Below, piece after piece: positions 5,371-46,681 of a stretch of 47,902 nucleotides of DNA (within the stretch, counting starts at the first letter, position 1; every line of letters starts with the position of its first letter). This DNA is from Syntrophomonadaceae bacterium. Its GTDB lineage: Bacteria > Bacillota > PH28-bin88. The position numbers were made by a program, and so were the translations under genes. Under the pieces are notes generated by a model. The model made no database searches. It had not been told where the DNA came from and saw nothing but the letters and a program-made list of their open reading frames with translations. The stretch covers positions 1 to 47,902 of the forward strand of contig JAGXSE010000038.1 of the NCBI GenBank assembly GCA_018333865.1, written 5' to 3'.

Positions 5371-5476
5371 TGTACATTCCGCGTCCCATTGAAATTATGC
5401 GGGTAAATTCGCGTTGCCTGTTCTAACTTCCGACTTCTAACTTATGACCTCTACTTTAAGCGGCGTGTCTCCGTTC
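5371..5476 (-). repeat. dispersed intergenic repeat, copy A
   Basis: Read on the minus strand this ~106-bp stretch matches 21687-21800 almost base for base. Shared blocks include ACACGCCGCTTAAA, AGAAGTCGGAAGT, AGGCAACG-GAATTTACC and ACGCGGAATGT. It sits between parA and rsmG and contains no gene. See copies at 21687 and 33646. Confidence 0.75.
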
Positions 5477-5534
5477 ATTTTATTCAACAAGGGAATCTAG
5501 TTTCCTGCACAAAAAAGGCGGAAATGCCCTTATA

Positions 5535-21604: not shown

Positions 21605-21686
21605 TGCTCAGCACCCCTTTATGCGGACTGACCATTGTGTGACAGATAATACCATGGGAATTTATGTAAGTCAATAAAATTTTTAA

Positions 21687-21800
21687 GGAACGGGGACACA
21701 CCGCTTAAATTAGAGGTCAGAAGTTAGAAGTCGGAAGTCAGAATAGGCAACGTGAATTTACCAGCTTAAGTACAACGGTACGCGGAATGTCCCCATTCGT
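21687..21800 (+). repeat. dispersed intergenic repeat, copy B
   Basis: This ~114-bp segment begins GGAACGGGGACACACCGC, contains AGAAGTTAGAAGTCGGAAGT (a 7-8 base sub-repeat of the AGAAGT type) and ends GCGGAATGTCCCC. It is closely similar to the reverse complement of 5371-5476 and has the same architecture as 33646-33790. It lies upstream of the gyrA promoter and codes for nothing visible. Confidence 0.8.
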
Positions 21801-35023: not shown

Positions 35024-35350
35024 AAATTTATTATTTTCAGGTTTTATAAGCGAAAACGATGCGGGGGAAAGGTACCCTTGTCCGGGGTCAAAAGAGAGCT
35101 GGTGGTTGGTGGAAACCAGCGTCCCCAACGAGGCGGAGAGCACCCCCAAGTGGACGGCGAAAAATTCATCAGCCGGGTGACCGACTTTTCTGCGGCCTCG
35201 TGAGCTGAAGTAAGCCGTTCCGGTCATGTCCGTTAAGCATGCCAAGTGAGCGGATGCTTTTTAACAGCAGCCGCTAATAAGGGTGGCACCGCGGGAAAAA
35301 AACCTCTCGTCCCTGATGGATTACATCGGGAAGGGGGGTTTGTTTTTTCG
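35024..35350 (+). ncRNA. T-box leader, serine type
   Basis: The ~330-base leader has the conserved T-box AATAAGGGTGGCACCGCGG (35276-35294) and the distal Stem I element AGAGAGCTGGTGG...AAACCAGC (from 35093). Stem I pairs GGGGG (35060s) with CCCCC (35143-35147) and CCTTG with CGAGG, leaving the 3' side of the specifier loop as GGAGAGCA: the codon AGC at 35139-35141, followed by the usual A, reads serine. The T-box bulge TGGC pairs with a G73-CCA end, and tRNA-Ser has G73. Uncharged tRNA-Ser would favour antitermination and switch on the genes downstream. Confidence 0.95.
35299..35348 (+). terminator. T-box attenuator terminator
   Basis: AACCTCTCGTCCCTGATG pairs with CATCGGGAAGGGGGGTT (35324-35340), followed by TGTTTTTT. 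It is mutually exclusive with the antiterminator that includes the T-box. Confidence 0.9.
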
Positions 35351-43168: not shown

Positions 43169-43375
43169 CGCAGCGTCCCCCATGCTTTTTCAAAAAACTG
43201 CTTATTATGACAATTTGCAAGCCAATATGCGAAATTATTTGACAAAAATTGACGAATTCCTTTGTTATAATTTGGGAATATGCTTGAAAAAGATACCTGC
43301 AAGAAACAGCATTACAATTTGAGAGCATATCCTGTGAATTCAGAGGAATTTGAGGCAAAACTCAACAGGGCATCA

Positions 43376-43536
43376 GAAAACCCGCACAAACGTGGTGTTG
43401 ATGCGGGTTCCAGTGTTTTAAACGGCAAGGAAGGCGGGATTTAACCAACATGTCCGTGCGGACAACCATATCTGCCGGGGATCCAGGCTACCCATTGCTG
43501 TCCCGGTGCTTTTTCGATACAAAAATGCCTAACGCT
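43376..43536. repeat. 161-bp direct repeat, left copy
   Basis: Identical over all 161 bases to 45892-46052 in the same orientation. It contains the last 16 codons and stop of the ECF gene (43488-43536), a hairpin AACCCGCA/TGCGGGTT (43379-43386 with 43402-43409), and 3'-flanking DNA. The bases just beyond, TTGCACAGATATCA (43536-43549), also match the ECF gene internally at 46265-46278, so the left copy looks like an ECF 3' end with 213 bp (71 codons) removed in frame. Confidence 0.97.
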
Positions 43537-43596
43537 TGCACAGATATCAGCCACAATAAATATATACTCCTCATTTGCTTTTATAGTTCCCCACAA
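43441..43596 (-). CDS. possible 51-residue protein overlapping rloB end
   Basis: A frame from TTG 43596, beginning WGTIKANEEYIFIVADICAS and ending PGRYGCPHGHVG, runs from inside the rloB 3' end into the left repeat. It looks protein-like and has Cys/His pairs, but the ribosome site is poor and no family is recognised. A second frame, ATG 43574 to 43488 (28 residues), ends exactly like the ECF protein. At most one of them is real; both may be recombination scars. Confidence 0.25.
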   Translation of the reverse strand: MWGTIKANEEYIFIVADICASVRHFCIEKAPGQQWVAWIPGRYGCPHGHVG

Positions 43597-44192
43597 TCTC
43601 GCAGGACAATTTTCATAAAACTATGAAGGGAGAAGTCCGGGTTGCGATAGCAGACGACAGTTCCTACCATAAAGCAGTCGGATTCCAATTTCTGAAGCCG
43701 GATTTGTTCTGCCCGGCGGATGGCATGTCTTACATCTTCAAGGGTAATTTGCTTTAGCATCTTTTCGAGATTAGTTTTTTCCTTAATGTCAGCGTCCTGG
43801 TTCAATCCATAGATTCTGCGTACATCAGCAATGTATGCGTCATTTGAAGCAACCGGCCTATTAAAATCTTCTTTATGAAGAATAAACCACAAGTCTATAT
43901 TTACATTGCTATATGCGTGATAAACATTTTTTCCATTCTCTCTCTGGCCTTTTCGGTGAAGTTTTTCACAGAGTTCTATGTTTTGACGAAACCCTGTTTC
44001 CTTGTAATCATAATCGAATAGAGCGGCATTATCGTACTCCGTATAGTTTTTCTTTAGTCTTTCAGGCAAGCCATATGACGTATTGAAAGTAACAACACGT
44101 TCCGGGAAATTCTTTAACAGAAAAGCCACTCGCTTTAAATACATCTCTTCCTGTTGCCCTTCACAAACGCAAAAATAGGTCTTACGATACAC
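43581..44192 (-). CDS. RloB/AbiLii-like protein
   Basis: A 203-residue protein with CEGQQEEMYLKR (residues 9-20), where RloB proteins have CEG-x-T-E, ALFDYDYKE and NVNIDLWFILH, matching the RloB family, which has a Toprim-like fold and probably acts as a nuclease. The glutamate and aspartates that would hold the metal are present. It starts with GTG at 44192, overlapping the ATPase stop by one base, with AAGGAGG upstream, so the two are coupled. The pair matches the lactococcal AbiL type of abortive infection system; that match is from family knowledge and untested here. Confidence 0.82.
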   Translation of the reverse strand: MYRKTYFCVCEGQQEEMYLKRVAFLLKNFPERVVTFNTSYGLPERLKKNYTEYDNAALFDYDYKETGFRQNIELCEKLHRKGQRENGKNVYHAYSNVNIDLWFILHKEDFNRPVASNDAYIADVRRIYGLNQDADIKEKTNLEKMLKQITLEDVRHAIRRAEQIRLQKLESDCFMVGTVVCYRNPDFSLHSFMKIVLRDCGEL

Positions 44193-45493
44193 TATATTTC
44201 CTCCTTTGCTTCTTCAGCGAAAAGCTTGGAAAAGTCAATATACGGAAGTGTACCGTATTTTCCTTTAAAATAATTTAGCAGATAGTTCTGGTCATTCCTA
44301 ACATCTGTGGAACCGAAATCAGCCAGCGAATAAATAGTGCTCTCGAAAGTGTCCTTATCTTTTTCTACGAATTTGATTTGATCACGCCGGAATATCTTGT
44401 TACTAAGATAAATCGGGTTATGAGAAGTAAAGATAAGTTGCGCTCCTTTTTTATTTGCCGATTGATCGTTGAAAAGAGCGATGATGCCTTTAATCAATTC
44501 GGGATGGATTGCCGCGTCAAATTCATCCAGTACGAATATGCCTCCCTTAAAGAACAAGTTTTCAAAGGGAATGGCAAAATCCAAAAGTTTCAAGGTTCCT
44601 CTTGATTCCATCAATTCTGCAGGAACTATTACATCCCGTTTGCCGGACTTGTAGATAGAAACAAGCCGCATATCGGCTGAATGCTCATCCTCGGATTTTT
44701 GGGATTTGAACAGGATTCGCTGAGGACCGAAATCCGCATTTTTTACAAATCCGTCAAGTGTTTCATTCCACGCGAGAAAATCTTTATCAGGTATATCGGC
44801 CACAGAAAGTGTAAGATGCGCTTTTTTAAGGGTAAAATCACTTACCACGATCAGTTTGTTTTTAAAAAAATCAATAACTTTATCGGCAATTTCGTTGCTG
44901 ACGACCGTTTTAAACGCATGTGTCAAAAACAATTCGGTTGGATCAAGGTTTTTATTGATCTTATTTTCAATCTCTCCCAAAAGCTTTTCGTTATATTGTA
45001 TAAGGGAAAGCACCCTTTTGTCCCGATTGATAGCGACCCGTTGGAGGTTTCTCTCAAAAAGCTGAGTCATTCCCTTGTGGATGTTTATCGATAACTGTTC
45101 CGATATAATCTGCCGTTTTTCCTTGTCAAACAGCCAGGTCATGATTTCAAAGGAATAAATAAAATGAGAGCCTTCATTTGTAAACTCCACTTCAAATAAC
45201 ATGGGGTTTTGCTCAAGACTGTGAGCAAAGGGGTATAATTCAAGATTGTTCAAATCCGGAGACGAGGCCTCAAGAGAACCTTGGAGAACGATCTCCCGCA
45301 TCAGCGCCAGTGACATAATAATATTGGATTTTCCGCTGGCGTTTGCACCATAAATGACAGCAGAGGGAAGGATACGCAGTCCATTTTCGCGGATGAGATT
45401 TTTATCTAAAGTCCGCTGTACTCCTGCTCCCATATTCAGTTGGGTCTTGCCCTTGAAGGAGCGGAAGTTTTGAAATGCATACTTTATCAACAT
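44192..45493 (-). CDS. AAA ATPase of RloAB/AbiL type
   Basis: A 433-residue ATPase of the AAA_15/AAA_21, OLD/SMC-related type: FQNFRSFKGKTQLN at the start, Walker A GANASGKSN (49-57), a long middle domain, Walker B FVLDEFDAAIHPEL (~320) and a switch region LIFTSHNPIYLS. Such ATPases accompany RloB nucleases and are thought to control them on sensing infection. ATG 45493 with GAGGAGG upstream. The module is visibly more AT-rich than its neighbours and lies between perfect direct repeats, both signs of transfer. Confidence 0.85.
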   Translation of the reverse strand: MLIKYAFQNFRSFKGKTQLNMGAGVQRTLDKNLIRENGLRILPSAVIYGANASGKSNIIMSLALMREIVLQGSLEASSPDLNNLELYPFAHSLEQNPMLFEVEFTNEGSHFIYSFEIMTWLFDKEKRQIISEQLSINIHKGMTQLFERNLQRVAINRDKRVLSLIQYNEKLLGEIENKINKNLDPTELFLTHAFKTVVSNEIADKVIDFFKNKLIVVSDFTLKKAHLTLSVADIPDKDFLAWNETLDGFVKNADFGPQRILFKSQKSEDEHSADMRLVSIYKSGKRDVIVPAELMESRGTLKLLDFAIPFENLFFKGGIFVLDEFDAAIHPELIKGIIALFNDQSANKKGAQLIFTSHNPIYLSNKIFRRDQIKFVEKDKDTFESTIYSLADFGSTDVRNDQNYLLNYFKGKYGTLPYIDFSKLFAEEAKEEI

Positions 45494-45891
45494 AAAGCAT
45501 CCTCCTCAAAGATTGTTAAAATTGCGCAATTCCTTAGCAATATTATAGCCAATTTTCACATATTTACAACATAATTGAGGAAATATCTCAATCTATTTAT
45601 ATTAATGGTGCTTATTATTCGCAAGTTTCCAAATGGATATTGTTGCTATATTTTATTATTCTTCCGATATCGCTTTTATTTCAACGATAACATGCCGAAA
45701 ATAAAATTTTTTTGCTTATTAGCGCCCCCACTGTTGCCATATTCTTAATACAATTCTTAGATAGTCGTTAATACCCTTTCCGCGCTTGGGCGGCTCGTCG
45801 GGAACAGTGTAGATGGATGGGAGGAAGATGATGCGAGATTGCGATTGCCAGTGGTATTTAGCAGATTTTCGCAAAAATGAGGGGGCAAGTC
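45494..45891. other. AT-rich gap upstream of the ATPase gene
   Basis: About 400 bases without a supported gene. It is AT-rich at 45520-45720 and presumably carries the promoter of the ATPase-rloB pair, which I could not define. A minus-strand frame (45719-45985) crosses into the right repeat but has no convincing start or family. Confidence 0.5.
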
Positions 45892-46052
45892 GAAAACCCG
45901 CACAAACGTGGTGTTGATGCGGGTTCCAGTGTTTTAAACGGCAAGGAAGGCGGGATTTAACCAACATGTCCGTGCGGACAACCATATCTGCCGGGGATCC
46001 AGGCTACCCATTGCTGTCCCGGTGCTTTTTCGATACAAAAATGCCTAACGCT
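45892..46052. repeat. 161-bp direct repeat, right copy
   Basis: Identical to 43376-43536. Here the repeat forms the natural 3' end of the ECF gene (stop at 46004) and its 3' flank, including the hairpin at 45895-45925 that may act as its terminator. The unit from one copy to the next is 2,516 bp, so recombination between copies would release the RloB/ATPase module as a circle of that size and leave one intact copy. Confidence 0.97.
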
Positions 46053-46561
46053 AAAACTGCTATGTAGACAAGTCCTGCCAGTCCCACGTTCACGGCTGAG
46101 CCAATCAACAAGGGTAAAACAATAGTCAGGAAAAAGTTAATGCCAAAAATGGGCGCCAGAGACAGGGGGGCCAGCACCCCATTTAACAGGGTGGTTACGA
46201 TGAAGGCTGCTAACAGGTTGATCCTTTTGGCCAGGAAGCCAAAAGAAAGAGCAAAAAAACCCATTTGCACAGATATCAACCCATGAATGGGCAAGCTAAG
46301 CGGAAAACCAGCAGCTGTGGCACTGAATAAATGGATTAAAGCAGCAATCACACCACCGGGAAGTGCTCCAAAAGCCAATGCACTGAAGTAGCCCGCGGCG
46401 GAATTCAGCGCGATAGCTCCAAGGGGGCCGTACAGTTTGAGGGAGGCGCCGATTACGATTAAAGCGACAAAGATCGCAACCTGGGCAATCAGCATTGGTC
46501 CGGGTGAGTTTTCTGTGAAGAAAAAAGAATTGTTTGATGTTTTCATATTAAACAGCTTCAT
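46004..46561 (-). CDS. ECF transporter S component, substrate unknown
   Basis: A ~185-residue membrane protein with about six hydrophobic helices, e.g. MLIAQVAIFVALIVIGASL and FGALPGGVIAALIHLFSATA, and a short basic tail SKKHRDSNG. The pattern of a small hydrophobic protein with G-x-L-x-G-P-L-G-A turns fits substrate-binding (S) subunits of energy-coupling factor vitamin transporters. The ECF A and T subunits are not in the window. The open frame reaches 46630 across the tRNA gene, so I take ATG 46561 (AAAGGAGA 11 bases upstream). Its last codons are duplicated in the left repeat. Confidence 0.7.
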   Translation of the reverse strand: MKLFNMKTSNNSFFFTENSPGPMLIAQVAIFVALIVIGASLKLYGPLGAIALNSAAGYFSALAFGALPGGVIAALIHLFSATAAGFPLSLPIHGLISVQMGFFALSFGFLAKRINLLAAFIVTTLLNGVLAPLSLAPIFGINFFLTIVLPLLIGSAVNVGLAGLVYIAVLALGIFVSKKHRDSNG

Positions 46562-46587
46562 TGCAAAACGGCTCTCCTTTTTAGTTT

Positions 46588-46681
46588 TGGCGGAGAGAGA
46601 GGGATTCGAACCCTCGGAACCGCTCATCACAGTTCACTCGATTTCGAGTCGAGCGCCTTCGACCAGCTCAGCCATCTCTCC
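46588..46681 (-). tRNA. tRNA-Ser (anticodon CGA)
   Basis: On the minus strand the acceptor GGAGAGA pairs with TCTCTCC, then discriminator G and encoded CCA. The anticodon loop CTCGAAA lies between CTCGA and TCGAG, anticodon CGA. A long variable arm (GAACTGTGATGAGCGGTTC) is typical of serine tRNAs. Confidence 0.97.

Follow-up and report, generated by a model that had tools for sequence, protein, structure and literature searches.

Identical copies of an ECF gene end frame an AbiL-like module on a fragment of ICE DNA, consistent with a single patchwork insertion

The window, meaning the whole 47,902-nt stretch of a Syntrophomonadaceae genome analysed here (contig JAGXSE010000038.1), contains an AbiL-like gene pair on an orphan piece of ICE DNA, which is bracketed by two identical 161-bp copies of the end of an ECF-type transporter gene. 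We lean towards the reading that a single recent patchwork insertion, by template switching or end joining, copied the ECF end and captured the AbiL-carrying ICE fragment; neither a circle nor a transposon nor an integrase would be needed. Read in this way, the locus is the fossil of one DNA-capture event and represents no new mobile element or defence system.

The repeat copies were located at 43376-43536 and 45892-46052. They comprised exactly 161 identical bp with a start-to-start spacing of 2,516 bp, and a scripted boundary comparison reproduced to the base the limits given in an earlier note on this DNA. A search with the left copy found only these two copies in the whole host assembly, which is one draft genome of 3.21 Mb in 71 contigs. 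A chance origin of the repeat is excluded. The right copy (minus strand) takes in the final 16 ECF codons and a hairpin terminator, and the left copy (minus strand) carries the same 16 codons, the spacer and the terminator, with the predicted hairpin at 43378-43409. The hairpin pattern occurred at two sites in the genome, both of them repeat copies. The folding stability of the whole 161-bp repeat was ordinary (z -0.68), and no Rfam family matched within it. A 54-codon open frame on the plus strand (43280-43444) enters the left repeat. Its translation gave no Pfam match and, in other genomes, a single match to the terminator region of a distant relative, G035 (E 0.08); the frame is probably incidental. 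Neither the 161 bp nor the 13-bp ECF piece described below carried a substitution, which speaks for a recent event, as had been proposed from the repeat alone. Gene conversion could also have kept the two copies identical.

The ECF-type transporter S-component gene (46004-46564, minus strand, 186 aa) is intact. Its paralogue in the same genome (G000:C23:39881-40417, 66-67% protein identity) could be aligned continuously through the inner boundary of the repeat, which marks the right copy as the real end of the gene, in agreement with the earlier note. The Pfam ECF_trnsprt (PF12822) cut-off was reached by the paralogue and by three homologues from other genomes; the window copy fell below it and showed weak similarity to PF07155 (E 0.075). 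The paralogue and homologues support the ECF label, at which the window copy by itself only hints. In a search of 60 relatives at the DNA level, no homologue of the ECF region turned up beyond its own genome. Five loci with ECF homologues were compared in other genomes, and none shared the neighbourhood.

Directly adjoining the left copy on its module side, at 43537-43549 (minus strand), we found a further ECF-derived piece that the earlier note had missed. This 13-bp scar, TGCACAGATATCA, was identified by a longest-prefix match to 46266-46278. When the 30 adjoining bases were shuffled 100,000 times, no shuffle gave a match as long (expected number ~1e-5), and the scar was recovered independently as a 14-bp match, the second-longest shared by the module's two flanks. 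Its source lies on the same strand, in the right order and 213 bp deeper inside the ECF gene than the repeat. The left side consequently corresponds to an ECF tail that runs from at least 46278 to 45892 but lacks 213 bp (71 codons) in frame. The duplication is more than a simple 161-bp tail, and we read the composite left side, from its sequence, as the signature of patchwork joining. By eye, the two left-side joins showed only 1-2 bp of microhomology; the right join is hidden by a 69-bp filler. Since the visible joins carry so little microhomology, plain end joining and template switching are equally likely.

The DNA between the repeats was traced to the interior of an ICE. On the left, the blastn alignments of three loci (L046, L047 and L051) all ended at 43551, one base past the scar, and the stretch 43551-43580 (minus strand), downstream of rloB, is an ICE-backbone remnant. 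On the right, 45719-45822 (minus strand) encodes the C terminus of an ICE Toprim/DUF3991 protein (YTVPDEPPKRGKGINDYL); the 5′ part of this gene is missing, and the remnant has 74-76% DNA identity to L046/L068 and to L067, the last being a Petroclostridium ICE gene. The intact Toprim gene in L046 carries both DUF3991 and Toprim_2. Between this tail and the right repeat are 69 bp (45823-45891) with no other copy in the genome. An assignment of this piece to a further part of the Toprim gene was rejected, as 409 of 1000 and 542 of 1000 shuffles scored as well.

The DNA match to Peptococcaceae BRH_c8a (L046) ran from window position 45812 to 43551 at 82% identity. In that element the module lies between the Toprim/DUF3991 gene and the NikA/MobC and relaxase genes, and in L048 it is likewise upstream of mobC/relaxase. 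We take ICEs of this Toprim/DUF3991-MobC-relaxase type to be Tn1549-like. Both edges of the insert match the BRH_c8a element, whose slot the module fills, whereas only ~2.3 kb is left here, without an integrase, relaxase or transfer gene at the site. No integrase, transposase or relaxase was found among the genes of the insert, which bears out the earlier statement that no integrase is visible inside, and the host genome encodes no relaxase and no DUF3991 protein. Given the truncated ICE edges and a host devoid of relaxase and DUF3991 genes, the insert is an orphan internal fragment and not a complete element; judged by its gene content, it is an internal ICE scrap of ~2.3 kb and not an autonomous mobile element.

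Close relatives of the ATPase encoded by the module were for the most part 78-90% identical (85-90% in unrelated Firmicutes used as module homologues) and occurred in scattered, distant Firmicutes, including Peptococcaceae BRH_c8a, a Dethiobacter MAG, Petroclostridium X23 and Acetivibrio alkalicellulosi. An ATPase homologue (E 1e-20) was present in 14 of 398 sampled genomes of the phylum, the window's own included. The scatter of close relatives through few distant Firmicutes means that the module spread horizontally. None of eight other module loci compared had a flanking direct repeat longer than 15 bp. Searches of plasmids returned no match to the DNA and no RloB protein, and viral contigs contained neither the AAA protein nor the repeat.

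On a 63-kb contig of BRH_c8a we observed two ICE genes of the Toprim/DUF3991 type (L107:5505-8002 and L105:9231-12364), with AbiL genes behind one and AbiEi/AbiEii genes behind the other, and in L067 a regulator-like gene takes the position after Toprim. As AbiL, AbiE or regulator-like genes may all stand there, this position looks like a cargo slot, and it is likely a site at which defence cargo is swapped.

The earlier description of an AT-rich AbiL/RloAB-like pair agreed with our GC values (~37-43% in the insert against ~50-55% around it) and with the Pfam and PADLOC matches. The RloB/AbiLii-like gene (43581-44192, minus strand, 203 aa) is intact; its product matched PF13707 (E 6.5e-14) and PADLOC AbiLii (E 2.4e-11) and contains the TOPRIM-like motifs EGQQE and FDYD. 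The AAA_21/AbiLi-like ATPase gene (44192-45493, minus strand, 433 aa), also intact, matched PF13304 (E 4.3e-24) and PADLOC AbiLi (E 3.4e-78), the latter over residues 1-428, and has the Walker A motif GANASGKS. The two genes share one operon and overlap at 44192. A promoter-like site, TTGTAA-16-TATAAT (45542-45569, minus strand; a consensus match only), lies upstream of the operon. With this putative promoter of its own and a terminator copy on each side, transcription of the module should be independent of the ECF gene. Against four relatives, dN/dS was 0.06-0.12 for RloB and 0.06-0.09 for the ATPase, both genes being full length and under purifying selection. Intact genes and low dN/dS indicate that the module stayed functional across moves from host to host; the ratios speak for the earlier hosts, not for selection after arrival in this one.

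The module is of a known type. Like the abortive infection system AbiL of Lactococcus lactis, it is an operon in which an AAA ATPase gene precedes an RloB/TOPRIM-like gene. It differs in that its AbiLii match covers only part of the model and in that it was ICE-carried and is now chromosomal. It is also similar to PARIS (AriA/AriB), which pairs an AAA ATPase with a TOPRIM-family effector, and the window AAA protein matched AriA models (E 3.1e-25). Nevertheless, the second gene is RloB and not AriB, and the AbiLi score was far above the AriA score. A search for an AriB-type (DUF4435) effector showed that the second gene matched RloB/AbiLii only. Sequence searches for relatives of solved structure gave none for the ATPase and only noise for RloB. 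AbiLii has been described as a TOPRIM effector and RloB as related to OLD_TOPRIM (PMC10440598). By analogy, the ATPase may sense infection and its TOPRIM-like partner may act as the effector, an effector of this kind probably shutting down infected cells.

A tRNA-Ser(CGA) gene (46588-46681, minus strand) next to the ECF gene, with its conserved neighbour tadA, served as the anchor for comparison with relatives; this tRNA-Ser(CGA)-tadA pairing is widespread. In the distant relative G035, a terminator directly follows tRNA-Ser(CGA) beside tadA. This terminator matched the window's left copy together with its outer flank over 43 nt at 84% identity (E 4e-7 within the set of loci compared), whereas the match to the right copy was shorter (33 nt). 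In the outer flank of the left copy, 8 of 10 bases matched those beside the conserved G035 terminator. The comparison, based on one distant genome, suggests that the outer flank of the left copy is the ancestral downstream flank and that removal of one repeat unit would restore it.

We must also note that 45946-45983 in the right copy (and 43430-43467 in the left) resembles the T-arm and variable arm of tRNA-Ser (82% over 39 nt, L091). The tRNA-like stretch sits between the ECF gene and a terminator of the type that belongs to tRNA-Ser in G035. A tRNA-Ser covariance model scored 3.6 bits on the repeat (E 5.7), and 1 of 200 shuffles scored higher. The stretch might be an old tRNA-Ser relic, one that the covariance model does not support.

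In the patchwork insertion that we favour, a repair or replication accident at a break would have come first, and the complete ECF gene with its terminator would have been copied. Copying would have continued through ~69 bp of other DNA and then along the ICE, taking in the Toprim tail, the AbiL module and the backbone. From the ICE it would have returned into the ECF interior for 13-14 bp, skipped 213 bp and copied the last 161 bp of the ECF gene again before reaching the old downstream flank. The outcome would be an intact ECF gene and a module with its own putative promoter between two identical terminators. For amplification in E. coli, complex products and joins with 2-15 bp of microhomology have been described, and template switching, in E. 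coli among others, is described as mixing duplications with short displaced pieces and very small homologies (PMC2621351). As in MMBIR/FoSTeS, the locus combines a duplication, a short displaced piece and a gap with very short joins (PMC2621351); the displaced copy of local sequence at the junction is the 13-bp ECF piece. The locus is unlike these cases in that the copied DNA includes foreign ICE sequence and the mechanism is inferred from its product only. We infer likewise the order of events and the template switching, as well as the defence function and the RecA-dependent loss considered below.

Two other histories were weighed, and we consider both unlikely. A tandem duplication of the ECF region could have come first, with the left copy later largely replaced by an ICE fragment and its remainder trimmed by a 213-bp deletion. 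Such events are common, and the left side does look like a trimmed ECF tail. However, several events would have been needed while the 161 bp stayed free of substitutions, and the right edge falls exactly at the repeat start, next to 69 bp without a counterpart elsewhere in the chromosome. The plain tandem duplication offered in the earlier note is insufficient, as it leaves the ICE DNA unexplained. About as improbable is the insertion of a non-replicating circle, carrying the module and a piece of the ECF end, through one crossover within the 161 bp of homology. It would yield identical repeats, an intact right ECF gene and the same map, and 161 bp is long enough for RecA, which needs ~50 bp in E. 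coli (PMC2621351). Yet the circle adds a step, since two to three illegitimate joins, between ICE and repeat, between repeat and scar and between scar and ICE, must already exist in it; the eight other module loci are free of flanking repeats; and the host lacks DUF3991 and relaxase genes as a possible local source. The circular intermediate named in the earlier note is not supported as the preferred mechanism, the insert being an internal ICE fragment beside a left repeat made of two separate ECF pieces.

Integrase-mediated, site-specific integration with the repeat as attachment site would suit a locus close to tRNA-Ser genes whose repeat is in part weakly tRNA-Ser-like. We give it hardly any credence: the insert has no integrase and consists of internal ICE DNA, not ICE ends, and the tRNA resemblance was insignificant in the covariance searches. 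An assembly artefact, including the case of a module-less chromosome and a module-repeat circle that the assembler joined at the repeat, is very unlikely, albeit a 161-bp repeat can confuse short-read assembly and the genome is a 71-contig draft. Real reads would still be required for the joins of repeat to scar and of the 69-bp piece to repeat, and the edge between scar and ICE coincides with a boundary seen in independent genomes. The contig alone fits both a fixed insertion and an empty chromosome accompanied by a module-repeat circle.

With a patchwork insertion as the preferred origin, loss of the module to leave a clean ECF locus is plausible, because the 161-bp repeats exceed the RecA minimum known from E. 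coli. Spontaneous RecA-dependent loss through the repeats, the clean looping out with an intact ECF gene foreseen in the earlier note, thus stands in theory. It is also conceivable, at a probability that we place very low, that two forms of the module coexist among living cells: integrated in the chromosome, or free as a 2,516-bp circle that has looped out at the repeats. If so, the duplicated, terminated gene end would be a built-in release site, and a costly defence module could be shed and regained without an integrase. In the patchwork reading, the locus is an unusually readable fossil of a defence module that left its conjugative vehicle and settled on a chromosome without a recombinase. 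The recipient ECF gene was kept whole, the newcomer was framed by terminators, and the post-Toprim position of the ICE is pointed to as an exchange slot for AbiL and AbiE defence genes.

The window is the replication-origin region (3725-24397), with ParA/ParB-, GidA/GidB-, TrmE-, DnaN-, RecF-, GyrB- and GyrA-like genes, all named by their sequences alone. The ICE fragment thereby lies ~20-30 kb away from the origin, where gene order is normally conserved. A 106-nt inverted repeat (5374-5479 and 21685-21790, 87% complementary), which includes a run of ACTTCCGACTTCTAACTT-type units, has one arm upstream of the ParA-like gene and the other upstream of the GyrA-like gene, and possibly belongs to a dispersed family of short repeats. 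Finally, a T-box leader was observed at 35050-35317, upstream of aminotransferase-like and phosphoglycerate dehydrogenase-like genes.
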